In this document: piece after piece, positions 5,809 to 26,055 of the stretch
Numbering within the stretch: position 1 is the stretch's first letter
Layout of the letters: every line of letters starts with the position of its first letter
Origin: Devosia sp. ZB163
Lineage (GTDB): Bacteria; Pseudomonadota; Alphaproteobacteria; Rhizobiales; Devosiaceae
NCBI RefSeq assembly: GCF_028613635.1
Contig: NZ_JAQRMY010000001.1
Location: 1,158,331-1,222,330 of the forward strand
DNA length: 64,000 nt
Direction of reading: 5' to 3'
The notes under the pieces: model-generated
Seen by the model: the letters and a program-made list of their open reading frames with translations, nothing else
Told to the model about the DNA's origin: nothing
Databases searched by the model: none
Program-made: the position numbers and the translations under genes

Positions 5809-5885
5809 GCGCCCGTAGCTCAGCTGGATAGAGCACCAGACTACGAATCTGGGGGTCAGGAGTTCGAATCTCTTCGGGCGCGCCA
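5809..5885 (+). tRNA. tRNA-Arg(ACG)
   Basis: A complete cloverleaf: the acceptor stem GCGCCCG (5809-5815) pairs with CGGGCGC (5875-5881), and the CCA end is encoded at 5883-5885. The anticodon loop CTACGAA gives anticodon ACG, and the T-loop is GTTCGAATC. Its 3' half is overlapped by the end of the antisense serine recombinase gene, which marks it as the integration site of the element to its right. Confidence 0.97.
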
Positions 5886-11040: not shown

Positions 11041-11069
11041 AGGCGAGACTACCGAAGCTGAAAACCCGT

Positions 11070-11094
11070 CCTCCGGGCACCCCCCTCCCTTAAG
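11070..11094 (-). promoter_or_regulatory. Triplicated element motif, copy 1 (upstream of relaxase)
   Basis: Given on the plus strand: CCTCCGGGCACCCCCC, three variable bases, CTTAAG. The same block with the same 19-bp offset from CCTCC to CTTAAG recurs at 14446 and 25917, each time ahead of a minus-strand operon. Here it ends 29 bp before the relaxase start. Confidence 0.65.
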
Positions 11095-11097
11095 GAT

Positions 11098-11126
11098 GCG
11101 GCCGCGAACAAAATGCCCGCGGCCGC
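11098..11126. repeat. GC-rich inverted repeat between coupling protein and relaxase
   Basis: Perfect 9-bp arms GCGGCCGCG (11098-11106) and CGCGGCCGC (11118-11126) surround an 11-nt spacer. No T-run follows, so it is a weak terminator candidate. Its place directly upstream of a MobF relaxase also makes it a candidate part of oriT. Confidence 0.5.
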
Positions 11127-11154
11127 CATGTAGTCTTTCGAAGGGTTTGCCTTG

Positions 11155-12921
11155 TCAGCCGGGGAGGCCAGTCCACTCGCTGAATTTCCACTCCAGCACG
11201 TAGACATCGCCCAGCCCGGCGACCGCAGCCCGGATTGACTTGCCGCCGCGCCAGTCCATAGTCAGGCCCAGCGCTTTTGCCATTTCACTAGGCGACAGGG
11301 CTGGCAGCTTGTGGATCGACTGTTCGCCATCCTTGCCAACATTCACCCCGAACGTTGCCTGCCCGACGAGTGTTTCGGCAATCTGCTCGGCATTCTTGCC
11401 CGGCCGCACCTTGCATATGACGACTTTGCCGAAATTCTCCAACAGTGCCTCGGCACCGGTTGCCGACAGCTTCTCCTCCAACTGCGCGATGCTTTGCGCG
11501 CTCGCCACGATTCTGATTCCGCGTGAGCGACCGAGAGACGCCAACAACGAGACATCGCCGGCCGCGCCGGAGAAGCGAGGCAACTCATCGGCAAAAAGCC
11601 AGATGCCGTGGTCGACGCCGTCCTCGACCCGGCTACTCAGCAACTCACTGGCAACGACACTCAGCATGGTCGCGATCAGTCGTCCCGAAAGCTCGGCATT
11701 TCCAAGGTCGTGCTGCAGGACTAAGACCGGGTGGGCCTCAGCCACTACCCACTTGGCGAGAGAGATCTTTGGCCAGCCGGCAGCTTCCATGTCGGCGAAC
11801 ACGCCGACGAAGTCGTCCACGTGCGAGATCATGTTGAAGATTGTGGAAAGGGCCATCGATGTCGGCTCTCCCTCCCGGTTGCGCAGCAGTTCGGCGACCT
11901 GCTGCATTGTGGGGGCCAGTTCTGCGGCAATCGCCTCCACGGGACGCGATATTGAGTGCTTCACGTCCGTCCAGCCCCAGTTCCGACCGCGTGTTTCTCG
12001 CAGCTTGACGAGCATGCCCGCGAACAGAAGCCGGGACGCTGCCGACCAGACCGGGTCCTTGGAATCCGGAATGAGAAGGGCGGCAATCCGCTGTGCCGCC
12101 TGCCGGCTTCGCAAGTCCTGACCGATTGCCCAGACCCCGCATCCTCGTCCGAGGCCGACGACACTTGCGGTGCCCTTGCCGAACACCCTGGTGATCCGTC
12201 GGAACAATCCCCCCTTTACGTCAAGGCAGAGCAGACGCTCCTTGCGCTCTACCGCCTGCCGCATGATCCCCTCCGCGATCACAGTCTTTCCCGAACCAGG
12301 GAGACCCATGATGAAGAGGGACTCATGCTCCGCCAGTCGGGGCAATTGCAGGCCCGGCGCCAGGGTAACACCAACGGGTGCTTCCTTGATCATTGGCCGA
12401 AGAAGACCGCCGGCAGCAGCAATAGCCTCGCCGAACCAGAGCACCCTGGGGCCATCGATCCAAGTTGCGCGACGGTGATGCGGAGCCCGGCTAGCGACGT
12501 GCCTAAACACCAGGTCCGCGGCCACCAGACCCGCCACAACTACACCGATCAGTCGGATCGACACATCGGTTGAGAGGTCGGCCCCAGCCAGTCGCGCCGG
12601 CAACGCAACGAGAAAACTGAGCGGAACGAGCAGCCACTCAACAAAGTAGCCAATGAAGTTGATTAAAAGAACGAGCCCATTATCAGAAGAGGTCGGGTAG
12701 ATCGGCGCGGCCTCCGCGACCAACTCGCCGACCAGACCCACGAGGGCATTGAGATCGAAATACGCCGTGTGACCAGCGACAGCGTTCCAACCCCTGATCG
12801 GAAGAATGGCAAACACAAAGGCGGCTACGACAATCGCCGCGAGGACGAATGCGGTGAACGCGGCGCCACGAGCTTTGGTCTCGTCCGGCACCGGGGTAAG
12901 GGCGTGTTGCTTACTATTCAC
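11155..12921 (-). CDS. Type IV coupling protein-like ATPase (TraD/VirD4 family)
   Basis: A 588-residue membrane ATPase that would bring the relaxosome to a secretion channel. There are three hydrophobic segments near the N-terminus (about 20-41, 86-107 and 124-140), then Walker A GLPGSGKT (206-213) and Walker B IWLFADELPRFSG. The start is GTG 12921, inside the last codons of the upstream gene (8-bp overlap). The frame stays open upstream, but that part overlaps the preceding gene. No channel proteins are encoded nearby, so it must work with a heterologous type IV secretion system or a very reduced one. Confidence 0.88.
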   Translation of the reverse strand: MNSKQHALTPVPDETKARGAAFTAFVLAAIVVAAFVFAILPIRGWNAVAGHTAYFDLNALVGLVGELVAEAAPIYPTSSDNGLVLLINFIGYFVEWLLVPLSFLVALPARLAGADLSTDVSIRLIGVVVAGLVAADLVFRHVASRAPHHRRATWIDGPRVLWFGEAIAAAGGLLRPMIKEAPVGVTLAPGLQLPRLAEHESLFIMGLPGSGKTVIAEGIMRQAVERKERLLCLDVKGGLFRRITRVFGKGTASVVGLGRGCGVWAIGQDLRSRQAAQRIAALLIPDSKDPVWSAASRLLFAGMLVKLRETRGRNWGWTDVKHSISRPVEAIAAELAPTMQQVAELLRNREGEPTSMALSTIFNMISHVDDFVGVFADMEAAGWPKISLAKWVVAEAHPVLVLQHDLGNAELSGRLIATMLSVVASELLSSRVEDGVDHGIWLFADELPRFSGAAGDVSLLASLGRSRGIRIVASAQSIAQLEEKLSATGAEALLENFGKVVICKVRPGKNAEQIAETLVGQATFGVNVGKDGEQSIHKLPALSPSEMAKALGLTMDWRGGKSIRAAVAGLGDVYVLEWKFSEWTGLPG

Positions 12922-13519
12922 TCCGGTCTCCCGTTCGTTTGATGCGAACATGCGCTCCGCTTGGGAGCGGGTCGTTCGGTGAAAGATTTGGGTTTTTGGC
13001 AGCGAGCGTCGCCAGCGGAACACCGATGAGTTCCGCCACCCGCGTCATGGATAGATCGTTGGCCCTGACCTCGAAGCTGCAGTCGTCGGTCAACGCATCG
13101 AGGCGCAGACAGAGTCCCATCTCATCGCCGCTGAACAATCCAACATGATGAAGCAGCCACCGAGCGTGGCGCTCGCCCGACGAGGCAGCCACGGTGACTG
13201 CGGTGACGACTACGATGCCGAGGATTAGCAGTTCGAGAAGCGAGGGAACTCGCTCCGGGTTCTGGGTCGTGCCGCTCTTGGGTGCAGCGGCGCTTGACTT
13301 CGCGTCGACCGGTTCAGCCTTCTTCGGCGTGCTTATCGGCTTAGCAGTCGCGTCTGTGGGCAATTCGACCTCGAGCCGTTTCAAGGTCGAGCGGGGCACC
13401 TTGGCCACCTCGCGGATCGGAAAGGTCGCAATGTTCCGACGCAGATAGAGGCGCGCGGACTTGCCGCGCGCCCTGTTGCTGGCGATCCGGTCCATCACTT
13501 TGGCCGGAGTGCTAGCCAT
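12914..13519 (-). CDS. Single-pass membrane protein with LysM-like C-terminal segment
   Basis: A 201-residue protein starting at ATG 13519, which overlaps the ParA-like stop by 8 bp; it in turn overlaps the coupling protein start, so all three are translationally coupled. The N-terminus is basic (RIASNRARGKSARLYLRRN), then comes a Pro/Ala/Lys linker and one membrane segment at about 97-117. The C-terminal domain ends VAELIGVPLATLAAKNPNLS...GAHVRIKR, which has the pattern of a LysM repeat. If exported as drawn, this would touch peptidoglycan. I infer a role in anchoring the transfer apparatus; the family is not otherwise recognised. Confidence 0.72.
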   Translation of the reverse strand: MASTPAKVMDRIASNRARGKSARLYLRRNIATFPIREVAKVPRSTLKRLEVELPTDATAKPISTPKKAEPVDAKSSAAAPKSGTTQNPERVPSLLELLILGIVVVTAVTVAASSGERHARWLLHHVGLFSGDEMGLCLRLDALTDDCSFEVRANDLSMTRVAELIGVPLATLAAKNPNLSPNDPLPSGAHVRIKRTGDRSE

Positions 13520-14387
13520 TGGCCTTCTCCACGTCAAAGCCCACCACGGCGCCCAGGCGCGGCCAGACTTCCGCGAGGAAGTCCGCGACATCGGCGCGCA
13601 CCGCCACAGCGACGGCGCGCGACAGCCCGAGACGAGCCATGAGTTCGTCCTCCGATACCATCATCGCTTCAGTGAAGGTCATGCCGACGGCCTCGAAGAG
13701 TGGCCAGGCACCCTCTGCGACCGCGGGCAAGGACAGGTGGCGGCGCCCCTTCAGGGCAGGCTGGATGCGTTCCGCGAAACACTTCCGCGCAGGACTGCCG
13801 GCAATGAAGCGGAAGCTGCCACCGTAGGCGTTGAGGACCGGAACGATCTCGGCAGAAGGATGCACCTGCTCCAGGTCGGCGATCACCGACGCCGTCTGCG
13901 TCATCGCGCTGCTATCGGCAGTCGTCACTGCCAGCGCTACGGCCTTCACCTCGTGACTGCCGAGATAGTTGTCGAAGCGGCTCCTGCTGATGAAATGCAG
14001 CAGTGCGCCCGTGTTGTGGCCGGCGCCGACATCGACGACCAGCACGCCCTTGCGCAGGGCGATGCTGCTGACCGCCAGGTCCAACGGCTCGAAGACGCGA
14101 ACCGCCGAGAGCGGGTCGATGCGCAGATCTTCTGCCGACGGGGCCACGATGGTGGTGGTAATCCCCTCATAGAGCTCAGGCAGGGTAGGCGCGCGGTCGA
14201 TCTGGATGATCGACACATCGCGACCGGCGGCTTTGCAGCCGTCGATCACGAGGCGCGCCACCGTCGACTTGCCGACGCCCCCTTTCGGGCCAACCGTGTA
14301 GACGATCGTCGGCTGCTCAGTGGCATGCTCCTCCTGGCTTGCCGACTTCGTCGCCGGCTCATTGCCGGCGCTGTTCTTAGTGATCAC
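13512..14387 (-). CDS. ParA/MinD-type P-loop ATPase
   Basis: A 291-residue deviant-Walker ATPase with KGGVGKS at residues 35-41 and VLVVDVGAG as the switch region. Such proteins position DNA or protein complexes. The start is GTG 14387, 7 bp after GGAG. It heads the operon ParA-like, LysM-like membrane protein, coupling ATPase, so it is as likely to place the transfer machinery as to segregate DNA. The ParB-like protein at 16.1 kb is transcribed the other way. A motif copy and a shared upstream element precede it (14446-14582). Confidence 0.85.
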   Translation of the reverse strand: MITKNSAGNEPATKSASQEEHATEQPTIVYTVGPKGGVGKSTVARLVIDGCKAAGRDVSIIQIDRAPTLPELYEGITTTIVAPSAEDLRIDPLSAVRVFEPLDLAVSSIALRKGVLVVDVGAGHNTGALLHFISRSRFDNYLGSHEVKAVALAVTTADSSAMTQTASVIADLEQVHPSAEIVPVLNAYGGSFRFIAGSPARKCFAERIQPALKGRRHLSLPAVAEGAWPLFEAVGMTFTEAMMVSEDELMARLGLSRAVAVAVRADVADFLAEVWPRLGAVVGFDVEKANG

Positions 14388-14445
14388 GACTTTCTCCAAA
14401 GCGCCGAAGTGACGCGCTGGAAGTACAGCACATTGAAAGATGCCC

Positions 14446-14470
14446 CCTCCGGGCACCCCCCCGACTTAAG
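14446..14470 (-). promoter_or_regulatory. Triplicated element motif, copy 2 (upstream of ParA-like gene)
   Basis: CCTCCGGGCACCCCCC, three bases, CTTAAG on the plus strand, with exactly the same 19-bp offset as the other two copies. It ends 58 bp before the ParA-like start. Confidence 0.65.
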
Positions 14471-14547
14471 CCTGAACCGGCGAATTCTGGGTGTGATCTC
14501 CTCTTCCGTGGAACCAGGCCAACGGCGGTTGTCGTCGGACGATCTGC

Positions 14548-14582
14548 TGACAGAATTGACAAAATTGCCAAAACGGTCGGGA
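14548..14582 (-). promoter_or_regulatory. Shared upstream element, copy a
   Basis: ACAGAATTGACAAAATTGCC followed by AAAA, a C and GTCGG closely matches 26033-26055 (TTGACAGAACTGCCAAAA then GTCGG). Both copies lie about 110-116 bp from a copy of the triplicated motif, so motif and element form one conserved control region. Confidence 0.5.
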
Positions 14583-14730
14583 TCCGAAAGCGCCTGAGGC
14601 TTGGCACCGCTGGTGGTATTGCCCGTGTGCTTCTCGCCACATGGCCGCTCCGGAGCTCCGCATCGGGACGACGCGGAACCCCTCCTGTTTCCAGCGCCGA
14701 GAGATAGAGGAGTGTGGAAGCGTTCATGAC

Positions 14731-14779
14731 GGATCAGGGCTAGGAGAGAGTCTCCCGGCGCCCGTCGTGGAGAATACCC
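14731..14779 (+). promoter_or_regulatory. Hairpin leader of the DUF932 gene
   Basis: GGAGA and TCTCC pair around GAG inside outer GGGC and GCCC arms, followed by CCCGTCGTGGAG and the GTG start. The arrangement hairpin, CCCGT, TGGAG, start codon is repeated ahead of the ParB-like gene. Confidence 0.45.
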
Positions 14780-15976
14780 GTGACCCAGATTGTAATGGCG
14801 GCCGATACCCGCGATAGGCGGAGTGGCTACAAGGTCGATGCGAGCCGCGGCGAGCGAGTTGGCCGAGTGAGTTCGGAGTGGCATTCGAGACCGGACGACG
14901 AGAGATACCTATCACTCGCCGACCTGCACGCTTCGGTCGTTACTCGAACCGAGCGCAGCCGAACGCGGACGGTCGAGAGTTCTGCGATCCGCGTCGAGGC
15001 CAGCAACAATGACCCGGAGCGTCTGCGACTGATCGTTCCGGGCTCCGACACGCCGATCGCGCCGACCAACTGGTCGTTTGGACAGTTGTCGAGCCTGGTC
15101 GGTGCGCCGGCCTCATACCTGCGGGAACTGCCGGCTCCGCTCGCGGCGATCAATCTGCAGTACGGTCTCGCCGCTCATCGCTCCGAACAGATCAAAACCT
15201 ACGAAATTGACGACGGCCGCACCGAACTGCGTGCCGCGACCGGTCCCGATTACGGCAGGATTTTCGACCACCAGTTGGTCGAGTCGGTGAGGCGGATAGC
15301 CGGCAACGGGACCGGAGATACGCGCTGGAAGGTTCCAGGCGTCCTCGACTGGGGCACCGGCATGTACAACCCCCACACCGAAATCTCGAAAGAAACGACT
15401 ACGCTTTACGCGAGCGATAGGGATATTTTCTTGTTTCTGGTCGACGATCTCAACCCGATTGAGGCTGGTCGTTTGCCGAGCGGCGAGCCGGATCTGTATT
15501 TTCGCGGATTCTATTGTTGGAACTCTGAAGTCGGTGCGCGAACATTCGGAATCGCCAGCTTTTACCTTCGCGCCGTCTGTCAGAACCGCAATCTCTGGGG
15601 TGTCGAAGATTTTCAGCAGATCACGATCCGGCATTCGAAACTCGCGGACTTCCGCTTCGCCCGCGAGGCGGCACCGGCACTGACCCGGTTTGCCAATTCA
15701 TCGCCGCAGCCGTTCATCACCAGCATCAGATCGGCCCGCGAGACGATCGTCGCCCGCAACGATGACGATCGGAGCGATTTCCTGCGCAAGGCCGGCTTCT
15801 CGAAGGCCGAGACCGGCAAGATCATCGAGACTGTGCTGCGCGAGGAAGGTCGGCCGCCAGTGTCCATCTTTGACTTCGTGCAAGGCATCACCGCCATCGC
15901 GCGAAGCCGCCCGCACCAGGATGCGCGGCTCGATCTCGAAGCCAAGGCAAAGAGATTACTCGAAAAAGCTGCGTAA
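14780..15976 (+). CDS. DUF932 (phage/plasmid-like) protein
   Basis: A 398-residue protein of the DUF932 family, which is common on plasmids, phages and integrative elements and has no settled biochemical role. Recognisable core: WSFGQLSSLVGAPASYLRELPAP, then YGRIFDHQLVESV, RDIFLFLVDD and RAVCQNRNLWG. It starts at GTG 14780 with GGAG 9 bp upstream. It is the first gene of a plus-strand series (DUF932, ParB-like, unknown, Toprim, DUF2493, DUF736) separated by hairpin leaders, which suggests individually tuned expression. Confidence 0.85.
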   Translation: MTQIVMAADTRDRRSGYKVDASRGERVGRVSSEWHSRPDDERYLSLADLHASVVTRTERSRTRTVESSAIRVEASNNDPERLRLIVPGSDTPIAPTNWSFGQLSSLVGAPASYLRELPAPLAAINLQYGLAAHRSEQIKTYEIDDGRTELRAATGPDYGRIFDHQLVESVRRIAGNGTGDTRWKVPGVLDWGTGMYNPHTEISKETTTLYASDRDIFLFLVDDLNPIEAGRLPSGEPDLYFRGFYCWNSEVGARTFGIASFYLRAVCQNRNLWGVEDFQQITIRHSKLADFRFAREAAPALTRFANSSPQPFITSIRSARETIVARNDDDRSDFLRKAGFSKAETGKIIETVLREEGRPPVSIFDFVQGITAIARSRPHQDARLDLEAKAKRLLEKAA

Positions 15977-16024
15977 CGCAGTCGGTCGGCTCCCCGATCC
16001 AGTCCGTCTCCCCACTGACAGTTC

Positions 16025-16055
16025 GGCGCCGTCCTCGGAGTAAGAGGGCGGCGCC
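16025..16055 (+). terminator. Hairpin after the DUF932 gene
   Basis: Arms of 12 bp (GGCGCCGTCCTC and GAGGGCGGCGCC, one G-T wobble) with a 7-nt loop, followed by TTGCTTCG. It is a plausible intrinsic terminator or attenuator between DUF932 and the ParB leader. Confidence 0.5.
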
Positions 16056-16065
16056 TTGCTTCGTG

Positions 16066-16119
16066 ACGGGTTTGGAGGCCGGGAGAGAGTTTTCCGGCCG
16101 CCCGTTATGGAGATCTGCC
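16066..16119 (+). promoter_or_regulatory. Hairpin leader of the ParB-like gene
   Basis: GGCCGG (16077-16082) pairs with CCGGCC (16094-16099), inside outer ACGGG and CCCGT arms (16066-16070 and 16101-16105). GAGAGAGT is in the loop, as in the DUF932 leader. TGGAG and the ATG follow. Confidence 0.5.
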
Positions 16120-18240
16120 ATGGCAAAGGCTACACCCATGATCGCGCTCAACCTCTCGCGCGACATCCCCTTCAGCCAACTCGTGCTGTCGCAATCGAAT
16201 GTCCGCCGTATTCAGGCCGGCATCTCGATTGAGGATCTTGCCGAGGACATCGCCCGTCGCGGGCTGCTGCAAAGCCTCAATGTCCGGCCGCTGCTCGACG
16301 CCGACGGCAAGGAAACCGGAACGTTCGAAATCCCTGCGGGCGGCCGGCGCTATCGTGCCCTCGAATTGCTGGTGAAACAGAAACGCATGGGGAAGCACCA
16401 GCCAGTGCCCTGTGTCGTCGTCGACGCCGGCAGCGCAATCGCACTCGAGGAAGATTCCCTTGCCGAAAACGTGCAGCGCGCCGACCTGCATCCGCTCGAT
16501 CAATTCAGGGCGTTCGCCGCCTTGCGCGAGAACGGTGTTGATGAGGAGGACATCGCCGCCAGGTTCTTTGTTCCGGTCACCATCGTGCGCCAGCGGCTGA
16601 AACTCGCCGCCGTCTCCCCAAAGCTCCTTGATCACTATGCCGAGGGCACCCTGACGCTCACCCAGTTGATGGCATTCACCGTCAACCCTGACCACGGGCG
16701 CCAGGAGCAGGTCTGGGAGGCGATCCAGCACTCTTGGTCGAAGGAGCCTTTTGCGATCAAGCGCATGCTCACAGAGAACACGGTTCGAGCCAATGACCAG
16801 CGCGTTGGCTTTGTCGGCATCGACGCTTATGTGGCGGCCGGCGGCGCTGTACTGCAGGATCTCTTCGACAATGACGGAGACGGCTGGCTGCAGGATGTCG
16901 CTCTGCTCGACCGCTTGGCCGGCGAGAAACTTGCCGCCGAGGCTGACGGCATCCTCGCCGAGGGCTGGAAATGGATCACGGCCGCCATCCAGCACCCTTA
17001 CGGGCACAGCCAGGGCATGACCCGTGTCTGGGGCGTTCCGGCGGAACTCAGCGATAGTGAGAGAGTAGCCATGGACGCTCTCGTCGCAGATCAGCAGAGG
17101 ATCGAGGACGAGTACGCCGACGCCGATGAGTTGCCCGAGGAGATCGACGCCCGCCTGGGCGAGATCGAGACCCAGCTCGAAAGTTTCGAGAACCGGCTGG
17201 CCGTCTTCAACCCCGAGCAGGTCGCCCATGCCGGTGTGTTCGTGTCGATTGACCAGAACGGGTCTCTGCTGGTCGAGCGCGGGTTCCTTCGTCCCGAGGA
17301 CGCCGAAGCCCTCCGCTCGGACAGCAACAAAGAGGACACCCACGACAGCGCTCGGGAGGAACAGGAGCCCGGCGACACGGTCGATACCAACGGTAGCGCT
17401 CCGCCCGCGGACAGCGATGCTGACGATGAGGAGGAAGGAGATGGCGGTAAACCGCTGCCCGAGCGGCTGCTGGGTGAACTAACGGCGTTCCGGACGTTGG
17501 CACTTCGCGACGCGGTGGCCGAGCATCCCGATACTGCGCTGACCCTGCTGCTCCAGCAACTGGTCACCGACCGCTTCTACTATCGTTCGTTCGGTGGCTG
17601 CCTGCAAGTCGCGCTGCATGAGCAGCACTTTCCGTTCCAGGGCAATAATCTCACGGACAGCGTGCCGGCGAGGACGATCGCCGAGCGGCATGAGAACTGG
17701 AAAGCCGATATCCCCGAGGATCGTGAGGCGCTCTGGGACTGGCTCGCGGGTCTCGACGCCCATAGCCGCCTATCGTTGTTGGCGCATTGCCTGTCGTTCG
17801 GCGTCACCGCATTGCACGAACGGACCGATCGCTTCAGCAACCCTTCGGGCGCCGCGATCCAGCGACGGTTGGAGGATGCCGATCGCCTCGCGGCCGCAGT
17901 CGCGCTCGACGTGGCCGAAGCGGGCTGGGCCCCGACCGTCGACACGTACCTTGGTCGGGTGACGAAAGCGCAGATCCTCGACGCGGTGCGGGAGGCAAAG
18001 GGCCAGCGGGCGGGCGACCGGATCGAGCACCTCAAGAAGGCGGAGATGGCCCAACTCGCGCAGGAACTGATCGCCGATTCCGGTTGGTTGCCCGCGGCAT
18101 TGCGCACTCCGGGTCTCTCCACTCCGCCCGCACTGGAGGCCGAGTTTCCCGTCGAAGATGCGGAAGTCTCGGTCGATCCTGCCCTCGAACATGATGTCCG
18201 TGCCGAACTGGCAGACATCCATCCCGTCGCAGCCGAGTAG
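16120..18240 (+). CDS. ParB/Spo0J-family protein with long C-terminal extension
   Basis: A 706-residue protein whose first 200 or so residues form a ParB-type core: SQSNVRR, the nucleotide/clamp motif PAGGRRYRALELL and SLAENVQRADLHPLDQFRAF, then a helix-turn-helix region (EDIAARFFVPVTIVRQRLKLA). The remaining 450 residues include an acidic hinge (about 400-455) and a helical domain ending in another acidic tail. This is much longer than chromosomal ParB (about 290 aa) and matches the large ParB-like proteins of integrative elements, which may act in replication or transcription control. Start ATG 16120 has GGAG at proper spacing. Confidence 0.85.
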   Translation: MAKATPMIALNLSRDIPFSQLVLSQSNVRRIQAGISIEDLAEDIARRGLLQSLNVRPLLDADGKETGTFEIPAGGRRYRALELLVKQKRMGKHQPVPCVVVDAGSAIALEEDSLAENVQRADLHPLDQFRAFAALRENGVDEEDIAARFFVPVTIVRQRLKLAAVSPKLLDHYAEGTLTLTQLMAFTVNPDHGRQEQVWEAIQHSWSKEPFAIKRMLTENTVRANDQRVGFVGIDAYVAAGGAVLQDLFDNDGDGWLQDVALLDRLAGEKLAAEADGILAEGWKWITAAIQHPYGHSQGMTRVWGVPAELSDSERVAMDALVADQQRIEDEYADADELPEEIDARLGEIETQLESFENRLAVFNPEQVAHAGVFVSIDQNGSLLVERGFLRPEDAEALRSDSNKEDTHDSAREEQEPGDTVDTNGSAPPADSDADDEEEGDGGKPLPERLLGELTAFRTLALRDAVAEHPDTALTLLLQQLVTDRFYYRSFGGCLQVALHEQHFPFQGNNLTDSVPARTIAERHENWKADIPEDREALWDWLAGLDAHSRLSLLAHCLSFGVTALHERTDRFSNPSGAAIQRRLEDADRLAAAVALDVAEAGWAPTVDTYLGRVTKAQILDAVREAKGQRAGDRIEHLKKAEMAQLAQELIADSGWLPAALRTPGLSTPPALEAEFPVEDAEVSVDPALEHDVRAELADIHPVAAE

Positions 18241-18267
18241 TCAGGCTTTCAATCAATCCCATCAATC

Positions 18268-18290
18268 GGGCCCGGCCTTGCGTCGGGCCC
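18268..18290 (+). promoter_or_regulatory. Hairpin leader of the 143-aa gene
   Basis: GGGCCCG (18268-18274) and CGGGCCC (18284-18290) form a 7-bp perfect stem 19 bp before the TTG start; ATGGAGG follows. Confidence 0.45.
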
Positions 18291-18309
18291 CTCTGATATG
18301 GAGGCTCAC

Positions 18310-18741
18310 TTGGCCGAATATCCGCTGCGGTTTTCCGTCGCCCTCGACACCGGCACCGCCGCCAACGCCGCAGAGGCGATTGCGCTTTACGCGGCGCTTG
18401 CCAGCACCGTCGCCGAGGACTTCATCGCCCCCGGCTTCGTCGTCGGCCCACATCCCGCTCTCCGTTCATCGACCATATGGATCCACGACCTGAACGGCCG
18501 TGGCGACCCTGAGCGGGTCGTTACCTTCGTCACCCGCTGTGCCGAACTGTTCGGGCTTGAGGGCAAATGGGGCTTTCAGTGGGCCAACACCTGCTCCGAA
18601 CCATTGCTCGATGCGTTCGGTGGCGGCGCCCTGGTCCTGAACCTCGCCACCGGCGAGGTCGTCGACGCCGTTCACACCGACGCCTGGCTTCCCGTCCGGC
18701 TCGACGACGATGCCGCGGGGGATGCCGCGCGGCAGCGTTGA
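18310..18741 (+). CDS. Hypothetical element protein (143 aa)
   Basis: An unrecognised soluble protein. I prefer TTG 18310 because GGAGG lies 5 nt upstream and the leader layout matches neighbouring genes; ATG 18298 in the same frame would add four residues. The sequence has a helical Ala-rich N-terminal half (AANAAEAIALYAALASTVAED) and a mixed C-terminal half with WGFQWANTCSEPLLDAFGGG and ATGEVVDAVHTDAWLPV. It lies between the ParB-like and Toprim genes, which suggests a maintenance-related role. Confidence 0.65.
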   Translation: MAEYPLRFSVALDTGTAANAAEAIALYAALASTVAEDFIAPGFVVGPHPALRSSTIWIHDLNGRGDPERVVTFVTRCAELFGLEGKWGFQWANTCSEPLLDAFGGGALVLNLATGEVVDAVHTDAWLPVRLDDDAAGDAARQR

Positions 18742-18764
18742 ACCTTCGCAATCCACCCCTCATC

Positions 18765-18788
18765 CGGGCTCGCCATCTGGCGGGCCCG
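18765..18788 (+). promoter_or_regulatory. Hairpin leader of the Toprim gene
   Basis: A 10-bp stem with one G-T wobble (CGGGCTCGCC with GGCGGGCCCG) and an ATCT tetraloop, followed by TTCGTTTTCGGAG and ATG 18810. Confidence 0.5.
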
Positions 18789-18809
18789 TTCGTTTTCGGA
18801 GAACAGAAT

Positions 18810-19847
18810 ATGCTCTACACCCCTAACGAGGTGGCGGTCGAACTCGCGCGTCGTGCCGAAGCCGTATGCCGACGCTACCTCTCCAACGGACAACGCCAGG
18901 GGCGCTATTGGATTGTCGGCGACGTCCGCAACGCACCCGGCAGTTCCATGTTCGTCCGTCTCGTCGGCCCTGTCCGCGGTCGCGGGGCGGCGGGCCGGTG
19001 GACCGATGCCGCGACGGGCGAACGTGGCGACCTGATCGATGTCATCCGGGCCTCGCTCGGCCTCGCAGAATTCCGGCATGCCATGGACGAAGCCCGACGA
19101 TACCTCCTGATGACTCCAGCGAGCCCACAGCCGTTGATCACCCTGAACAGGTCGCCGGCACCCACCGGATCGCCCGAAGCTGCCCGTCGGCTGCTCGCCA
19201 TATCGAACCCCATCGGCGGCACGCTTGCAGAGACCTACCTGCGCGGTCGCGGCATCATCGATCTTCGCCATTCTAGCGCCCTGCGTTTCCATCCACGTTG
19301 CTACCATATGCCCGCACAAGGGCCGACCGAGACGTGGCCTGCAATGATCGCTGCCGTGACCGACCTCTCTGGCAATGTCACCGGGGTGCACCGCACCTGG
19401 CTGGCACGGGACGGCAGCGGCAAGGCACCACTCGACACACCGCGCCGCGCCATGGGCGAACTGCTCGGGCACGCGGTACGCTTCGGCACTGTATCCGACG
19501 CCTTGGTGGCTGGCGAAGGCATCGAGACGGTGCTGTCGCTGCGGCAGGTCATGCCCGAACTGCCGATGGCCGCATGCCTTTCGGCCGCCCATCTGGGCGC
19601 CTTGGCGTTCCCGCCGACACTGCGCCGGCTCTATGTCGCCTGCGACGACGATGCCGCGGGTGAGGCCGCCTGGATCGCTCTCGCCCAACGAGCTCGCGCC
19701 ATAGGCATCCAGCCGATAATGCTCTCGTCACGGCTGCAGGACTTCAACGATGACCTTGTCCTGCTCGGTATCGACGCGCTCAGGACCTCGATGCGGGAGC
19801 AGCTTGCTATCGAGGACGTCCTCCGCTTTCTCGGCTCACCGGCATAA
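18810..19847 (+). CDS. Toprim-domain primase-like protein (DUF7146 type)
   Basis: A 345-residue protein. The N-terminal half carries the DUF7146-like region (RYWIVGDVRN, GRWTDAATGERGDLIDVI). The C-terminal half is a Toprim fold with the Glu motif VAGEGIETVLSL and the DxD-type motif YVACDDDAAGEAAW. Toprim proteins of mobile elements act as primases or other nucleotidyl-transfer and nicking enzymes; a primase serving conjugation or replication is most likely. ATG 18810 has CGGAG 8 nt ahead. The frame stays open upstream, but that part overlaps the preceding gene. Confidence 0.85.
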   Translation: MLYTPNEVAVELARRAEAVCRRYLSNGQRQGRYWIVGDVRNAPGSSMFVRLVGPVRGRGAAGRWTDAATGERGDLIDVIRASLGLAEFRHAMDEARRYLLMTPASPQPLITLNRSPAPTGSPEAARRLLAISNPIGGTLAETYLRGRGIIDLRHSSALRFHPRCYHMPAQGPTETWPAMIAAVTDLSGNVTGVHRTWLARDGSGKAPLDTPRRAMGELLGHAVRFGTVSDALVAGEGIETVLSLRQVMPELPMAACLSAAHLGALAFPPTLRRLYVACDDDAAGEAAWIALAQRARAIGIQPIMLSSRLQDFNDDLVLLGIDALRTSMREQLAIEDVLRFLGSPA

Positions 19848-20169
19848 CGCAGGAGCGTGCGTGTCGCCACGTTCACACCGCGCAACCCTCTCGCTGCGCC
19901 GCGCCCGGCCTTCCAGAGGGCGATCGAGCCCACGGGCAGCTCGGTACGGCAACGGCTCCTGCCGGCTATTTTCCGGCGGCGCGCCCCTGGTGTGCGACGA
20001 CCGGCCAGCAGACCAACGCCGTTCCATCGCGAAGCAAAATAGCCCGCCTCCGCCATCCTCCGCTTTCGCTCCGTCCCGCCGCTTCGCTCCGGGTGCCGCC
20101 CGTCCCGCCCCTGGGCTTTCGTCGCCATGAAGGCCGCGAGGGTCGCGGCTAACCGACAGGAGCAGCCCC
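19848..20169 (+). other. Intergenic stretch with DUF2493 leader hairpin
   Basis: No convincing coding sequence. It is C/G-rich with repeated CCGCTTCGCTCC-like strings. At its end GCCGCGA and TCGCGGC form a 7-bp hairpin (20132-20148) ahead of ACAGGAG and the DUF2493 ATG, in keeping with the leader layout of the upstream genes. Confidence 0.5.
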
Positions 20170-21090
20170 ATGTACGACCGCGACGACATCGAACATCACG
20201 ATGCCTCTCCAACGGCCCATATCATCAGCGAACTCGAGCTCCATGGCTGGAGACCATCTGGCGACGACATCGACACTCGACCAATGCCCGAAGACTATGT
20301 GCTCGCCGGCGCAATCAGCGACGTCTTCGACGCTATGGTTTCGAGCTTCGCCGACACTGCGCTCGACGCGGATCTCGAGGAACTACTCTGGTCGATCACG
20401 AACGGCTTCCATCGCGCGGCCGCCCGGATCGAGCGGCAGCTCGACGACAACGAGCAGTCCCAGCGCCGGCTACAACAGGAGCAGGACGGCACCGAAGTGA
20501 AGGCAGTCGAACTCGAGCGGCTGCTGACCACAGGCGAGTTGCTGATTGCCCGACGCGATGCGCTCGAACTAATGCGCGATCAGGCCGCCGAAAAGTTTGA
20601 GCACCAAACCGGCTCACCCTGGCGACCGCGCAACGGTTCGGTGGTCAACCACAGGGCCCTAACGTCCGCTCTCGTTGATAGCCGCGACTACCTGGCGGCA
20701 AGAAAGCGGGCCGACACGAAGGTCATGCTTCCGATCGGACCGAAGATCGCCCTCACCGGTGGCCTCGACTTCAACGATCACCGTCTGATCTGGGAAACAC
20801 TCGACAAGGTCCATGCCAAGCACAAGGACATGGTTTTAGTTCACGGCGGCAGCGCGAAAGGGGCCGAGTTGATCGCCGCCAAATGGGCCGATACCCAGAA
20901 AATCAGCCAGATTGCTTTCAAGCCCGATTGGACGGCGCATGGAAAGGCAGCCCCATTCCGCCGCAACGACCAGATGCTCGACATCTTTCCCATCGGCGTC
21001 CTGGTCTTCCCTGGATCTGGAATTCAGCACAATTTGCGCGACAAGGCCCGTAAGCTCGGTATTCCCGTCTGGTCAGTCGGGGGCGCATAA
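20170..21090 (+). CDS. DUF2493 (SLOG/YspA-like) protein
   Basis: A 306-residue protein with an N-terminal helical region specific to element-borne members and a C-terminal DUF2493 domain of the SLOG (nucleotide-derivative binding) superfamily: KIALTGGLDFNDHRLIWETL, then VLVHGGSAKGAELIAAKWA and VLVFPGSGIQHNLRDKARK. The GGSAKGAE and PGSG loops are the expected ligand-binding positions. SLOG proteins bind or process nucleotide derivatives; the in vivo role on integrative elements is unknown. Start ATG 20170 follows AGGAG. Confidence 0.85.
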   Translation: MYDRDDIEHHDASPTAHIISELELHGWRPSGDDIDTRPMPEDYVLAGAISDVFDAMVSSFADTALDADLEELLWSITNGFHRAAARIERQLDDNEQSQRRLQQEQDGTEVKAVELERLLTTGELLIARRDALELMRDQAAEKFEHQTGSPWRPRNGSVVNHRALTSALVDSRDYLAARKRADTKVMLPIGPKIALTGGLDFNDHRLIWETLDKVHAKHKDMVLVHGGSAKGAELIAAKWADTQKISQIAFKPDWTAHGKAAPFRRNDQMLDIFPIGVLVFPGSGIQHNLRDKARKLGIPVWSVGGA

Positions 21091-21584
21091 GCGCCTTCGA
21101 CCTGCAGCGATACAACCCTAGTGCTTGGCCCGCTGCCTCCTGTACCAGCACCAGTCCTTCTCGGGATATCCGAAACGTCGACCGCGACGCCCTACCTCGC
21201 AGCCACGGAACAGGAACGAAGGACAGCAGCCGTGACGCCACTTAGCGCTCACTCGCCAGGCCATCGCCATAACCACTCGAGATCCGCGGCCACGCCAACA
21301 TCTCCAAGACCCGTGTCGCAGCCCTCTCCATCCCGGCCTGACTGACTGGCTGATCTGGCTGTAGGACGGCTTCGCCTCGACCAGCTTTGCTTCAACGGCG
21401 GCGCCGAACTTTCTTCCCCTGCCGGCTCTGCCGGCATTCCTCGCGGGAAAGCCAAGAAAGTTCTATGCCGCCGTCCTCCGCTGCGCTGCGGCCCGTTGGG
21501 TGAAGCACCGGTCGCCTGCAGCCTGTCGATCGCCATCGAGGCCGCGATGGCGCGGGCTCGGAACATCAGATCAAGGAGACTACC
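21091..21584 (+). other. Non-coding stretch with nested inverted repeat
   Basis: About 490 bp between DUF2493 and DUF736 without a convincing gene. It contains a nested inverted repeat at 21406-21463 and, nearer the DUF736 start, a hairpin with arms CGCCATCG and CGATGGCG ahead of AAGGAG. Replication-origin or transfer-origin function is possible but unproven. Confidence 0.5.
21406..21463. repeat. Nested inverted repeat
   Basis: Outer perfect 10-bp arms GAACTTTCTT (21406-21415) and AAGAAAGTTC (21454-21463) enclose a 7-bp hairpin TGCCGGC-TCT-GCCGGCA (21420-21436). Such a structure can extrude as a cruciform. Confidence 0.65.
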
Positions 21585-21902
21585 ATGGCGACCATCGGCA
21601 CCTTCAAGAAGTCCGGCAACGAACTCACCGGCGAGATCATCACCCTCTCGGTCCAGGCCAAGAACGTCCGCATCGTCCCCGAGGCCAGCCCGGCAAACCA
21701 GAACGCCCCGACCCACCGCGTCTTCGTGGGCAAAGCCGAGATCGGCGCCGCCTGGACCAAAAAGTCGAACGAGGGACGCAGTTACCTCTCGGTCAAGCTC
21801 GACGATCCGAGCTTCGCAAGTCCGATTTACGCAAACCTCTTCGACGACGACGACACCGGAGCGACGCTCGTCTGGTCAAGGCCGGCGCGAAAGGCGGAGT
21901 AA
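21585..21902 (+). CDS. DUF736 family protein
   Basis: A 105-residue protein beginning MATIGTFKKSGNELTGEIIT, the standard DUF736 opening, with NVRIVP, GKAEIGAAWTK and the late YLSVKLDDPSF and YANLF motifs. The family is a hallmark of alphaproteobacterial plasmids and integrative elements and has no established function. ATG 21585 follows AAGGAG at ideal spacing. A strong hairpin follows the stop. Confidence 0.92.
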   Translation: MATIGTFKKSGNELTGEIITLSVQAKNVRIVPEASPANQNAPTHRVFVGKAEIGAAWTKKSNEGRSYLSVKLDDPSFASPIYANLFDDDDTGATLVWSRPARKAE

Positions 21903-21908
21903 GATTGG

Positions 21909-21933
21909 GAGGCGCTCCCTCGGAGCGCCTCCG
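21909..21933. terminator. Bidirectional hairpin between DUF736 and the convergent 574-aa gene
   Basis: Perfect 11-bp stem GGAGGCGCTCC / GGAGCGCCTCC with a CTC loop. It sits between two converging genes; there is no long T-run on either side. Confidence 0.6.
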
Positions 21934-21961
21934 TCCCCCTACAAACCGAGAGATGTTCGGT

Positions 21962-23686
21962 TCACGCTATTTTGGTGTCGTCCTCTAGAATGCCGATAGC
22001 TTCCCTCCAGACAGCCAACGCCGAACCCGAGGGATCCATCGCTTCAAGGACGGCCTTGATTACTGCCTCATCAGGCCGAGCTCCCCAGACCATCAACTCC
22101 GGGTCGTGCTCAAGCTCCATCCTGTAACGCTCAAGTGCGGCTGGCACCGTCGGAACTTCGTTTGGCACCCCCCCGGTCCGACGCTTGATGTCCGCCTCAT
22201 AGACTACACCCTCATCGAAGCGCGCAGCCAGTTCGCGATACCAGTCGAGCGTCGGAGTGGCTACTTTCTCAAGCATTTCCTTCCGCAATGGTCCGTAGTT
22301 GCCGCCTCGCTCAAGCAACTTGGCATGACGGACATGGAACATCTCGGTGAGGGCGCGCAGCTTCACCGAGCTATCGCGAAGGCTCCAGAGCCGTTCAAGA
22401 ACGCGCTGACGCCCCTCCTCCAAACGTCCCGTCGTCTTCCTCTGATGTTCGGAGGCGTACATGACCGGCGAGCCGCGATCGAGATAGTGGGCGTTGGCAG
22501 GCGGCCGCTCCGTGTCTTCGCCATCATTGGGATCGAGCAGTTCCACTTTAGCGATGTGGATACTTCTCCAACGCAGCTTCCACTTCAGGATGCGCAGCAC
22601 ATGCCGGGCGTGCTTGGCGCCTTCAAGTGCGGCATCGACAGCTTCCTTCTGCAAATCGACCCCGACGTCGCCCGGCATGGCAATCTCGTTCAACCCTTCG
22701 CCACCCCGCGTCGGCGCCAGCAACTCGAAGATGGTGCGTCCGAATTCGAGGAGCGGACTGGGCCTAGTCCAACTGGCGATTGTCTCGCCGGACTGATTAT
22801 TCCTTTGACGATCCGTCATCTGGAATTCGATCTCGAGGAAGCGCGCAGCGCGACGCGCAGTAGTCGCCAGGTTTTTACGTGCTTCCACGAAACCCTGTCC
22901 TTCCTCGGGGAGTCCCTTCTGCATGGGGGATGTTTCCTTCCCAGAAAGCAGATCTCGAGCCCCTTTGAGGCTTGCGAAAATGCCTCCTGCGAAAGGCTCT
23001 GCATTTTCGATCGCCTGTCGCGACCGCTCTCCAAGCTCCCACGTTGCCTGATCGACACGAAGGCTTGCCGGCGCGCCAAACTTGCTTGCCAGGGCGAACT
23101 TGCGCTTGAGCTTGCGCGAATTAGCCGCTTCATCGGCGGTTAGATGCGACGGGTCGTGAAAACCGAAAACTGTCTCGTCGTGATCCTCCGGAACGGCCGT
23201 TCCTTCCGCATCAACATTCTTCTCACCGAGTTCGACGAACCGCAGGTCATCCCTACGCGGCCTACCATCCAGCGGATCAGGAAAGGACACCAACAGCGGT
23301 CCCAACACGCCCTTCTTCTCGAGCGCGTCCACAACATCGGTCGGGATCGGGCGATCGCCGAGCCTGGGCTGCTTCCGGCCGGGCTTGAGATCCCAGCCGA
23401 AAACCTCGCCGATGCGCTCCAGTTGCTTGATGAGAGAGATGCGGCTACGCGGATGCTCGCCCAACGTGGTCCCATCGGTCTTAGCTGCAGGATCGAGCGC
23501 CACGTTCCAATCGAGCGCCGACCAAAGATATCCAGCCAACAATTCGACGCTCTGCGCGGAGGTCAGTTTCCGACGCGGCTGTCCGATACGTTCGAAAACC
23601 TCGGACATGTACTCGGCGAACTCTTCCGCCTCGCACGTGGCGAGAGGTGTGGTTTCAATTAAATTAACGACCGTTGAAATATTCAT
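21962..23686 (-). CDS. Large hypothetical protein (574 aa)
   Basis: Not recognised. A soluble, highly charged and mainly helical protein with no signal peptide or membrane segment. Features seen: an N-terminal helical region with SVELLAGYLWSALDWNV, a middle part rich in Arg/Lys (NSRKLKRKFALASKFG, TTARRAARFLEIEFQ) and a helical region near residue 430 (GRLEEGRQRVLERLWSLRDSSVKLRALTEMFHVRHA, split here by description only). No P-loop or nuclease motif is evident. The upstream region is markedly AT-rich relative to the rest of the element. It is transcribed after the small 131-aa gene and may form a module with it. Confidence 0.7.
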   Translation of the reverse strand: MNISTVVNLIETTPLATCEAEEFAEYMSEVFERIGQPRRKLTSAQSVELLAGYLWSALDWNVALDPAAKTDGTTLGEHPRSRISLIKQLERIGEVFGWDLKPGRKQPRLGDRPIPTDVVDALEKKGVLGPLLVSFPDPLDGRPRRDDLRFVELGEKNVDAEGTAVPEDHDETVFGFHDPSHLTADEAANSRKLKRKFALASKFGAPASLRVDQATWELGERSRQAIENAEPFAGGIFASLKGARDLLSGKETSPMQKGLPEEGQGFVEARKNLATTARRAARFLEIEFQMTDRQRNNQSGETIASWTRPSPLLEFGRTIFELLAPTRGGEGLNEIAMPGDVGVDLQKEAVDAALEGAKHARHVLRILKWKLRWRSIHIAKVELLDPNDGEDTERPPANAHYLDRGSPVMYASEHQRKTTGRLEEGRQRVLERLWSLRDSSVKLRALTEMFHVRHAKLLERGGNYGPLRKEMLEKVATPTLDWYRELAARFDEGVVYEADIKRRTGGVPNEVPTVPAALERYRMELEHDPELMVWGARPDEAVIKAVLEAMDPSGSALAVWREAIGILEDDTKIA

Positions 23687-23724
23687 GAATTGTACTACCG
23701 AATAATATCTCGCACTGGGCCAGT

Positions 23725-24120
23725 TTACTCATCGTATTCAGACATTCTAGATTTGATTAAACTTCTTGCTTCTGCCAGCCGACCGACGAGCCCGGTCTTT
23801 GGTGGCGCCGACTGTCGAGGAGTCGGCCCCATCGGCAACCGGACGTTTTCGACGATCGGCGGCAACACACTCATGTTGGTCGCCGCGGATTTCTTCTTGC
23901 AGCGCAGATAGACGGCATTGAGTTGTCGCCGGGACAGCGGGCGTCCACTTCTCTGCGTCACGCCGGCCCGAGCGAGTGCCGCTGCAATGGAAGACCAGGT
24001 GAGCCCCTGTTTGATAAGGTCATCGAACAGCGAGAGGCGCTGCCTGACAACTCTCTCAAAAGGTACGTCTGCCGGCCAGTCGGCCACTAGCTTGTCGTAT
24101 CGTGCGGTCATCGGAGCCAT
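23725..24120 (-). CDS. Small putative DNA-binding protein
   Basis: A 131-residue basic protein. Residues 27-75 form a helix-turn-helix-like pattern (LFDDLIKQGLTWSSIAAALA, then GRPLSRRQLNAVYLRCKKK) of the kind found in element-encoded regulators and recombinase linkers. The C-terminus is Pro/Arg-rich, then helical (RLAEARSLIKSRM). The start may be ATG 24120 or the in-frame ATG three codons later. It lies 38 bp downstream of the 574-aa gene's upstream region and shares its direction. Confidence 0.6.
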   Translation of the reverse strand: MAPMTARYDKLVADWPADVPFERVVRQRLSLFDDLIKQGLTWSSIAAALARAGVTQRSGRPLSRRQLNAVYLRCKKKSAATNMSVLPPIVENVRLPMGPTPRQSAPPKTGLVGRLAEARSLIKSRMSEYDE

Positions 24121-24130
24121 CCGTTAGGAA

Positions 24131-24152
24131 GAAGGGGCCGTACGGCCCCTTC
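24131..24152. terminator. Perfect palindrome between DUF3987 and the 131-aa gene
   Basis: A 22-bp perfect palindrome (GAAGGGGCCGT then ACGGCCCCTTC) lies 8 bp past the DUF3987 stop. It may be a terminator hairpin or a protein-binding site. Confidence 0.5.
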
Positions 24153-24159
24153 GTCATGT

Positions 24160-25824
24160 CTATGCCCTTCCCAGCGCCAGCAGCGCGGGGTGGACCTGCC
24201 AGTCTCCCGAGGGGCGACCACGGCCAGCACCCCGCGGCGCGGGCCTGACGAGACCGCGCTGCCTCAGTTCCTCGAGCGCCTCACGAACCGCCAAGGGCTC
24301 GCGCAGAGGCGAGCCATGCCCGCGGACGATGTCCTCGCGCCCGTTGATTTCCGGCTTGCCGGCGCGGGCCAGGTACTTCGCCAAGGCGCTCGCATCCGAG
24401 TCCTTGGGGCGATGGCTGGTGAAAGTACGCTCGGCCATGGGCAGGATGTAGCCATCGACCAGTGCAATGGCACTTGCCATGGCCTGGTGACCTACGGCCA
24501 CCGGGAGCCCATGCTTCCCCGCTACGACGTGGTCCAGGATCTCGAAGAGACCGCCAATGCGAATGGCGTACTGGCGGCCGCGGCCCAGGGCCGTGGCAAA
24601 CAACTCGCCGCTCAGATCCTGCTGTCGCAGCCAGATCGCCGATGCCGTCTCGACCAGTTCGCGCGCACCAGCAGCGAGCGGGATGATCGTCGAATAGGTC
24701 GTCCCGTCTCCTGCCGGCTTGATCGAGATCAGTCGCGACAACAAGTTGTGCAACACGTCAACCGGGCCCGGGTCGGACCCAAACTCGGCAGTGGATTCGA
24801 CATTGGGATAGACCCAGAAGACGCGAGCCGCAAAGCCGTCGTCCGCGCCGCGCAAGAGCGCCGGCAGCTTCCTCGGCTGCGTGGCACCCAGAATCGAGAG
24901 CACCAACGCCGGAACCCTGAGCCGGCCTCCCGATTTCGACCGCGCCGTGTAGGGACCCCCGTCAAAGGCACTCAGCAGAATACCTTGCGAGCGCGCCGCC
25001 TGGCTCGACATTAGATAGCCGAGCGAACCGGTAATCTCATGGGTCAGCAGCATGCGGCCATTTTGGTCCATGCTGAGTTCGTCGAGCAGTCCCGAGGCGG
25101 TTCCTTCAGTCACCAACAGCGAGGCGCTCACTGGCTCCGTAACGCTGGCCACCGCGTTCTCGTAGTCAATGGCGAGGCGGCGCGACACCTTGGACTGGAT
25201 CTGTTCGAGTATCGTGTTCAGGGCCTCTTGCCCGTCGGTCGCGGCAGCGCCACGAGTGTCGCCGCACATTTCGTTGTCGATGACGCGCAGAGGCTCCTCG
25301 ACGACCTTGAGGGCATTCCCCTTGCCCTTGCTCGCGTCACCGACCAGGACAATATAGGTGCTCAGGGTTTCCGTCGTTCCATCCGGAAGGCCGACCCGAG
25401 CGCGATTGCCGATCGCCCCCGACACCGCGCCCAGAACCGCAAATGCCACGTAGTCGGGCACGAGCTTCCGTGCCTCGACCAAGCCCGCCACGAGTTCCGA
25501 GAACTTGGCCGGCAGCTTTTCCATCGGCAACGTCGGCGCAGGGGCCACTGCCGGCGTCAGAAAGCTCGTGTCCGGGTCCGGCCAGACGGTGCCAACGGCC
25601 GATTCGATGTCGGCCGTTTCAACGATGGCGATGGCCGCCGACTCGGCGGGCGCGGAAGTCTGGCTGGCTTCACTCTCGCCGGCAGTGATCAAAGCTTCCT
25701 GAGGCTGTTCGTCCACCTCCTTATCAGCGGGAGCACGCTCGACCGTGGCGGTCTCTGTCGACGCCTTGTTCGCGTCAATCCCGCTAGCCGCCTGAAACGC
25801 ATTCTTCGCTCTTGGCTTACGCAT
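24160..25824 (-). CDS. DUF3987 family ATPase-like protein
   Basis: A 554-residue protein of the DUF3987 type found with mobile-element primases and helicases. After an Ala/Glu/Thr-rich N-terminal tail (to about 100) comes a P-loop-like segment (IVLVGDASKGKGNAL), deviating from the GKS/T consensus, then LLVTEGTASGLLDEL, RMLLTHEITGSLGYLMSS and a C-terminal winged-helix-like region (REALEELRQRGLVRPAPRG). A replication-linked role is likely but unproven. ATG 25824 has GTGGAG 7 nt upstream; a GTG 12 bp earlier is possible. Motif copy 3 lies 92 bp upstream. Confidence 0.8.
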   Translation of the reverse strand: MRKPRAKNAFQAASGIDANKASTETATVERAPADKEVDEQPQEALITAGESEASQTSAPAESAAIAIVETADIESAVGTVWPDPDTSFLTPAVAPAPTLPMEKLPAKFSELVAGLVEARKLVPDYVAFAVLGAVSGAIGNRARVGLPDGTTETLSTYIVLVGDASKGKGNALKVVEEPLRVIDNEMCGDTRGAAATDGQEALNTILEQIQSKVSRRLAIDYENAVASVTEPVSASLLVTEGTASGLLDELSMDQNGRMLLTHEITGSLGYLMSSQAARSQGILLSAFDGGPYTARSKSGGRLRVPALVLSILGATQPRKLPALLRGADDGFAARVFWVYPNVESTAEFGSDPGPVDVLHNLLSRLISIKPAGDGTTYSTIIPLAAGARELVETASAIWLRQQDLSGELFATALGRGRQYAIRIGGLFEILDHVVAGKHGLPVAVGHQAMASAIALVDGYILPMAERTFTSHRPKDSDASALAKYLARAGKPEINGREDIVRGHGSPLREPLAVREALEELRQRGLVRPAPRGAGRGRPSGDWQVHPALLALGRA

Positions 25825-25916
25825 ATACAACTCCACGGGTATTCCGTGGTCCCTGGGCTAGGAGCCGGGCTGAATTGCTCGACTACGCGTAAACCCTACC
25901 CCGGCTGATAATGCTT

Positions 25917-25941
25917 CCTCCGGGCACCCCCCCGCCTTAAG
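25917..25941 (-). promoter_or_regulatory. Triplicated element motif, copy 3 (upstream of DUF3987)
   Basis: CCTCCGGGCACCCCCC, three bases, CTTAAG, with the identical 19-bp offset. It ends 92 bp before the DUF3987 start. Confidence 0.65.
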
Positions 25942-26032
25942 CGAGGTGCCGCGCAATTGATTCAATTTCTTCGAGCCCCTCATTGTTGGTGAGGGGCATC
26001 CGACAGCGAAGAGAAGCGATTCGCTGTCAAAA

Positions 26033-26055
26033 TTGACAGAACTGCCAAAAGTCGG
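26033..26055 (-). promoter_or_regulatory. Shared upstream element, copy b
   Basis: TTGACAGAACTGCCAAAA followed by GTCGG, nearly the same as 14557-14580, and likewise about 116 bp from a motif copy. It overlaps the inverted repeat CTGTCAA-AA-TTGACAG. Confidence 0.5.

Follow-up and report, generated by a model that had tools for sequence, protein, structure and literature searches.

The closest known counterpart of the locus considered here is the MOB-Stb region of plasmid R388 (stbABC beside the trw relaxase genes). There, according to PMC3098194 and PMC3937220, the protein StbA recognises 9-bp direct repeats and acts as a repressor of many plasmid promoters, a single plasmid-encoded protein serving both transfer and maintenance promoters. 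The locus itself lies in 64,000 nucleotides of Devosia sp. ZB163 (contig NZ_JAQRMY010000001.1, positions 1,158,331 to 1,222,330; hereafter the window) and is a mobilizable element in which a 25-bp box stands ahead of three groups of minus-strand genes. It shares with R388 a MobF relaxase, a TrwB-type coupling protein, a ParA-superfamily ATPase and a small helix-turn-helix (HTH) protein, as well as 9-bp direct repeats ahead of several operons. It differs in gene order, in the additional DUF3987 gene, orf225 and orf574, in its chromosomal location within a genome having no VirB4-type model match, and in the box, which is absent from R388 (best score 12.9, versus at least 30 for true copies). The homology of its HTH protein (HTH131) and ParA-like protein to StbA and StbB of R388 is weak, hhalign aligning the ParA-like protein with StbB over 18 columns only.

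Read in the direction of the genes, the box is CTTAAG-N3-GGGGGGTGCCCGGAGG (CCTCCGGGCACCCCCC-N3-CTTAAG on the plus strand), and it occurs three times:

11070..11094, minus strand: box copy 1, exact match, upstream of the MobF relaxase gene
14446..14470, minus strand: box copy 2, exact match, upstream of the ParA-like, orf225 and coupling-protein genes
25917..25941, minus strand: box copy 3, exact match, upstream of the DUF3987, HTH131 and orf574 genes

These are the only matches in the window with up to 3 mismatches allowed, and 100 dinucleotide shuffles of the window contained none (mean 0.00, maximum 0). The first-pass annotation, which had reported the motif in triplicate ahead of minus-strand genes for a relaxase, a ParA-like protein and a DUF3987 protein, was right on both counts. 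Random occurrence across the genome had been named beforehand as the outcome that would speak against the motif; with the same tolerance, no copy beyond these three was found in the whole genome (4,587,172 bases, 10 contigs), neither with the box nor with a longer pattern comprising the box and a following T-tract, and a control pattern read backwards gave 0 matches. From the box to the start codon, 50 bp are counted for the relaxase (start at 11019), 58 bp for the ParA-like gene (14387) and 92 bp for the DUF3987 gene (25824). The last two distances agree with the earlier ones, while the 29 bp formerly given for the relaxase had been measured from a GTG at 11040 and is replaced here by 50 bp, as the gene starts at the ATG at 11017-11019, with an N-terminus (MVATIAAG) common to its relatives.

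We regard the box as a genuine, conserved cis-element that belongs to a mobilizable element. Among 136 genomes of the family, the pattern matched 7 (the reversed pattern, 1 of 136), and four of these 7 carry the element: the Devosia genome itself, G041, G127 and G129. The relaxases of the latter three are 68% identical to that of the window, and their boxes keep the same three positions, reading GTTAAGTGGAGGGGGTGCCCGGAAG (relaxase), TTTAACTCGGGGGGGTGCCCGGAAG (ParA-like gene) and CTTAAGTAGGGGGGGTACCCGGAGG (DUF3987). The internal offset, claimed to be fixed, is constant among the window's three copies but not throughout the family: the DUF3987 box of G129 is one base shorter. A further relative, L070, found by protein search rather than by the motif, is a groundwater assembly contig labelled Gammaproteobacteria, whose relaxase is 44% identical and which has two diverged boxes, ahead of the relaxase and the ParA-like gene. 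Its gene block runs DUF3987-HTH131-orf574-ParA-orf225-coupling protein-relaxase, and the region ahead of DUF3987 lies beyond the contig end. Common to the box-bearing lineages are the genes for DUF3987, HTH131, orf574, the ParA-like protein, orf225, the coupling protein and the relaxase. As a separate observation, G041 and G127 (loci L027-L030), which are assigned to two genera, share 39.3 kb around the element at 99.995% identity, pointing to either very recent transfer or mixed assemblies.

Across 7 orthologue pairs, identity within the box is 64-88%, against 44-57% (gapped) in the 75 bp upstream, where shuffled sequences give 45-48%, and 47-70% in the 45 bp downstream. The earlier proposal of a box conserved at the nucleotide level and tied to transfer-type operons is therefore supported, since in each box-bearing relative the box stands ahead of the same genes and is kept where the upstream flank is not. 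The footprint also bears on the notion that the copies arose when a leader segment was recently duplicated and have no function: over 58 bp, copies 1 and 3 are indeed 76% alike, but diverged relatives retain the same positions although their upstream flanks are near shuffle level, and this explanation, already disfavoured, appears the most improbable of all. Over 8 box copies, TTA, GGGG, a T, CCC and one G are invariant; conservation extends beyond the box to a T-tract at +30 to +33, counted from the box start (T in 7, 7, 6 and 7 of 8 copies), with further T at +43 (7 of 8) and +48 (6 of 8). TTAA is nearly invariant, and a CtrA-like regulator recognises TTAA, so that a host regulator of this type could be imagined to bind the box; the host genome has element copies only, none at host genes, and one L070 copy reads TTAT, making such a host factor quite improbable.

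Other pattern matches were set aside. The remaining three of the 7 matching family genomes (G086, G096, G099; 5 matches) contain a dispersed GC-rich repeat in one identical context, which is not the box; this repeat (CCCCTCACCCCGCCCTTCGGGCACCCC...) imitates the box at L005, L006, L007, L011 and L012, in genomes of the same genus. In a set of 385 genomes, three besides the genome itself (G280, G374, G377) had one match each with 3 mismatches, which is at chance level (reversed controls, 5 of 385). The matches at L018 and L019 resemble bioB coding sequence, a similar plasmid match being annotated bioB, and we take them to be bioB-like; that at L017 is presumably aroC-like coding sequence. Exact scans of the genome_contigs and viral_contigs collections, from which records near the window's genome may be left out, returned 0 boxes. 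DNA searches of plasmids gave one match at E 6 for the copy-3 region and none for the copy-2 region, and the copy-3 region matched 7 phage records at E 2 or worse.

The genes concerned are the following:

8329..11019, minus strand: MobF (TrwC-type) relaxase/helicase (PF08751, 201.6 bits, cut-off 25; NF041492, 185.1 bits, cut-off 100)
11155..13023, minus strand: coupling protein (TrwB/TraD type) by profile match, start codon uncertain
12914..13591, minus strand: orf225, kept in all three box-bearing lineages, with an uncertain start codon
13512..14387, minus strand: ParA-like ATPase, perhaps StbB/TraL-like, with weak profile matches
21962..23686, minus strand: orf574, conserved in the three box-bearing lineages
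23725..24120, minus strand: HTH131, small HTH-like protein, possibly StbA/TraK-like
24160..25824, minus strand: DUF3987 protein (130.5 bits)
5856..7514, minus strand: large serine recombinase (domains PF00239, PF07508, PF13408)
5809..5885, plus strand: tRNA-Arg (acg), probable integration site

The ParA-like protein has a Walker motif (GPKGGVGKST), matches PF10609 at E 0.0016 (below the cut-off) and the TraL model at E 0.0046 (far below the cut-off). Other-strand genes of ParB, Toprim, YAcAr and DUF736 type, and of DUF932 type (below its cut-off), have no box. The surroundings seem to fit an integrative mobilizable element that would need a helper: as in such elements, an integrase gene lies at a tRNA (the serine recombinase gene overlaps tRNA-Arg), relaxase and coupling protein are its own, and a mating pore of its own may be lacking, the VirB4-type model PF03135, the only pore family searched, having 0 matches genome-wide (in a control it matched 1 of 14 genomes). 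An apparent difference is that direct-repeat ends were not found, the tRNA 3' region not being repeated in the window beyond 11 bp exact or 13 of 14 bases, although for serine recombinases a very short core can suffice. Since one box copy adjoins the relaxase gene and an inverted repeat, and F-type nic regions are also G-rich, the box might be taken for a DNA-processing site (relaxase-binding, oriT-like or a single-strand promoter); against this, the box occurs in triplicate, always ahead of a gene start and in the orientation of the gene, and the idea seems no more probable than a host regulator.

What would the box do at these three places? On balance, we favour the reading that it serves three promoters as an operator, to which a factor encoded by the element would bind and thereby switch three operons together: the relaxase; the ParA-like, orf225 and coupling-protein genes; and the DUF3987, HTH131 and orf574 genes. 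A factor encoded by the element is preferred because the host genome holds no other copies, and it could be either an activator or a repressor. Similarity to TATAAT over the 8 copies peaks 18 nt after the box:

11046..11051, minus strand: putative -10-like hexamer TAGTCT, 18 nt after box copy 1
14422..14427, minus strand: putative -10-like hexamer TGTACT, 18 nt after box copy 2
25893..25898, minus strand: putative -10-like hexamer TAGGGT, 18 nt after box copy 3

The peak (2.75 of 6 positions) is reached over 16 offsets by 33 of 5000 shuffles, which were of single bases, the offset range having been picked after the pattern was viewed; the next-best offsets, 6 (2.5) and 3 (2.38), are due to the T-tract. 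This weak hexamer is suggestive only. If real, it would put the transcription start some 30 nt downstream of the box, which would then cover roughly positions -55 to -31, where a -35 element would otherwise lie; the -35 place is occupied by the box end, not by a TTGACA-like hexamer. Activator or repressor sites overlapping the -35 region are a general kind, and the box, which is long and would have its centre near -43 should the -10 assignment hold, would be of the same sort; a difference is that its sequence has been matched to no known regulator site. One box-to-hexamer spacing fits all 8 copies best, as would also be expected if a special sigma factor read box and hexamer as the core promoter of an unusual holoenzyme, with no separate regulator. 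However, 25 bp with a separate TTAA block exceed the usual -35 element, and no other copies exist in the genome, so that this alternative looks rather unlikely.

A second input may exist at two of the three operons, in the form of triple 9-bp direct repeats (consensus about TTTTGKCAR), which resemble the StbA sites of R388, both sets lying between divergent operons:

14548..14574, minus strand: three 9-bp direct repeats, GTTTTGGCA ATTTTGTCA ATTCTGTCA (0 of 1000 shuffles reach the score)
26026..26052, minus strand: three weaker 9-bp direct repeats (56 of 1000 shuffles reach the score)

The corresponding G041 regions score at a level reached by 2 (ParA) and 0 (DUF3987 operon) of 1000 shuffles, and the window and G041 agree at 94% over a 33-bp stretch that includes the repeats. 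No such repeats were found at the relaxases, where 792 and 963 of 1000 shuffles reach the score. As controls, R388 stbA gave 10 of 1000, and one of 5 control genes (yidC) also gave 3 of 1000. The repeats thus stand ahead of the operon of HTH131 itself and of another one, and HTH131 is their putative ligand, probably binding at both. Searches with HTH131 returned no Foldseek match below E 0.001 and, among solved structures searched by sequence, only myoglobin (E 0.15).

Several observations, besides the choice of offsets mentioned above, weigh against the operator reading. With about 99.99% identity among them, the elements of G041, G127 and G129 amount to a single lineage, so that only three independent lineages are available in all. 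Relaxase relatives are present in 33 of 136 family genomes, and of the 30 loci returned and scored, the box was found in 4 (relaxases 68-100% identical) and was missing from 26; likewise, a protein search of species genomes yielded 8 relaxase loci at 43-46% identity, 7 of them without a box, the eighth being L070. In L070, the relaxase copy has a poor hexamer (AGAGTC). Finally, the predicted structure of orf574 (predicted local distance difference test score, pLDDT, 35) offers no usable model.

The best of the 26 box-less family loci scored 15.0 (inside the L048 relaxase match), versus at least 30 for true copies, from which the scoring matrix was itself built. HTH131- and ParA-like genes are also found in box-less relatives, whereas tblastn at E 1e-4 detected neither orf225 nor orf574 in the 13 box-less loci searched. 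Beyond the family, the ParA-like profile matched 4 of 397 genomes from the order and 2 of 398 from the phylum, own genome included and the others distant, and it had no relative in viral_contigs; DUF3987 relatives occur in 4 of 297 order genomes, own included, the others at 25-30%. On plasmids, the relaxase has relatives in at least 5000 records (45.6% at best among the matches listed), and the three best records (one over 50,000 of 66,072 bases, one over a 42-kb stretch) have no box; the ParA-like protein reaches 25-27% in two Methylobacterium records, DUF3987 21-23% in 3 records, and the coupling protein has no match at 1e-30. On one plasmid, Methylobacterium aquaticum pMaqPC3 (L024), another 19-bp motif (AATCAGGTTTTCATTCCAG) is repeated ahead of both the relaxase and the ParA-like gene (upstream of the relaxase at 11862; in shifted form at 12481; and at 15885), in the same layout with a different motif.

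Downstream of the box, a hairpin before the start codon can form in 8 of 8 box-bearing leaders, the window examples being:

11022..11045, minus strand: predicted hairpin in the relaxase ribosome-binding region (z -1.21)
14394..14422, minus strand: predicted hairpin in the ribosome-binding region of the ParA-like gene (z -1.67)
25833..25849, minus strand: predicted hairpin upstream of the DUF3987 start (z -1.68)

In L070, a long stem covers the ribosome-binding site of the ParA-like gene (3740-3790, z -7.5). These hairpins, together with the purine-rich box end (GGAGG or GGAAG in 6 of 8), are what would be expected if the box were an RNA leader element, transcribed from a promoter further upstream and exerting translational control with the start-codon hairpin. 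Minimum-energy folds of the box region nevertheless vary among copies, no shared upstream promoter was seen by eye, Rfam has no match at the box, and a similar hairpin occurs at several box-less relaxases, so that an RNA leader is unlikely. Among 22 box-less relaxase loci, the start was found in 9, with z at or below -1.38 in 7 and values of -0.43 (L066) and +1.34 (L065) in the others. At L037, L038, L063, L064, L067, L068 and L069 (L063 and L067 being identical in sequence), the hairpin lies directly before the relaxase start, mostly with a GGAGG-like 3' arm.

Combined with the operator reading, the hairpins allow a two-part gate to be proposed, in which the element factor would fire three promoters via the box, relaxase and ParA-like transcripts would start at the 5' arm of the hairpin, and only native mRNA would have an open ribosome site, read-through mRNA folding and staying untranslated. 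In all six leaders of relaxase and ParA genes, the putative transcription start coincides with the 5' arm or closely follows it, so that the complete hairpin would be present in read-through mRNA but little of it in native mRNA; in the ParA leaders of the window and G041, the inner pairs extend past that start. For 5 of 8 leaders, the assumed native transcript leaves the ribosome site (picked with a simple duplex score) more open, the exceptions being both DUF3987 leaders and the G041 relaxase. Leader z values range from -0.92 to -7.51, and 4 of 8 fall below every control (lowest -2.47), a rough comparison as 4 of 14 control positions were not start codons; the three window leaders are not below all controls, which speaks against the gate. 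Covariation did not go beyond shuffles (one two-sided change in 4 pairs over 3 sequences, reached by 164 of 500). The evidence that hairpins may silence read-through is thus mixed, and the gate as a whole is a doubtful, if possible, proposal. Protection against read-through is known for transposases (IS10, IS50). Literature searches brought up no description of such a gate among the matches listed, nor, with CTTAAG as the only term for it, of the box, and the passages of PMC8450116 consulted do not mention read-through.

Taken together, the box is probably a shared switch for the element's own transfer and upkeep genes, because relatives keep it while the preceding DNA drifts. The coupling of transfer and replication genes suggested earlier survives in part: the third operon comprises DUF3987 and a possibly StbA-like HTH protein, for which 'maintenance' may be the better term. 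The gate, if true, would silence an integrated element that depends on a helper until the element's own regulator becomes active, and would extend transposase-type read-through protection to conjugation. Few elements let one test how a chromosomal mobilizable element coordinates its relaxase, coupling protein and maintenance genes, and a short, strictly conserved box before all three gene groups offers a direct handle, as it delimits a regulon, points to the promoters and could be used as bait to fish out the regulator.

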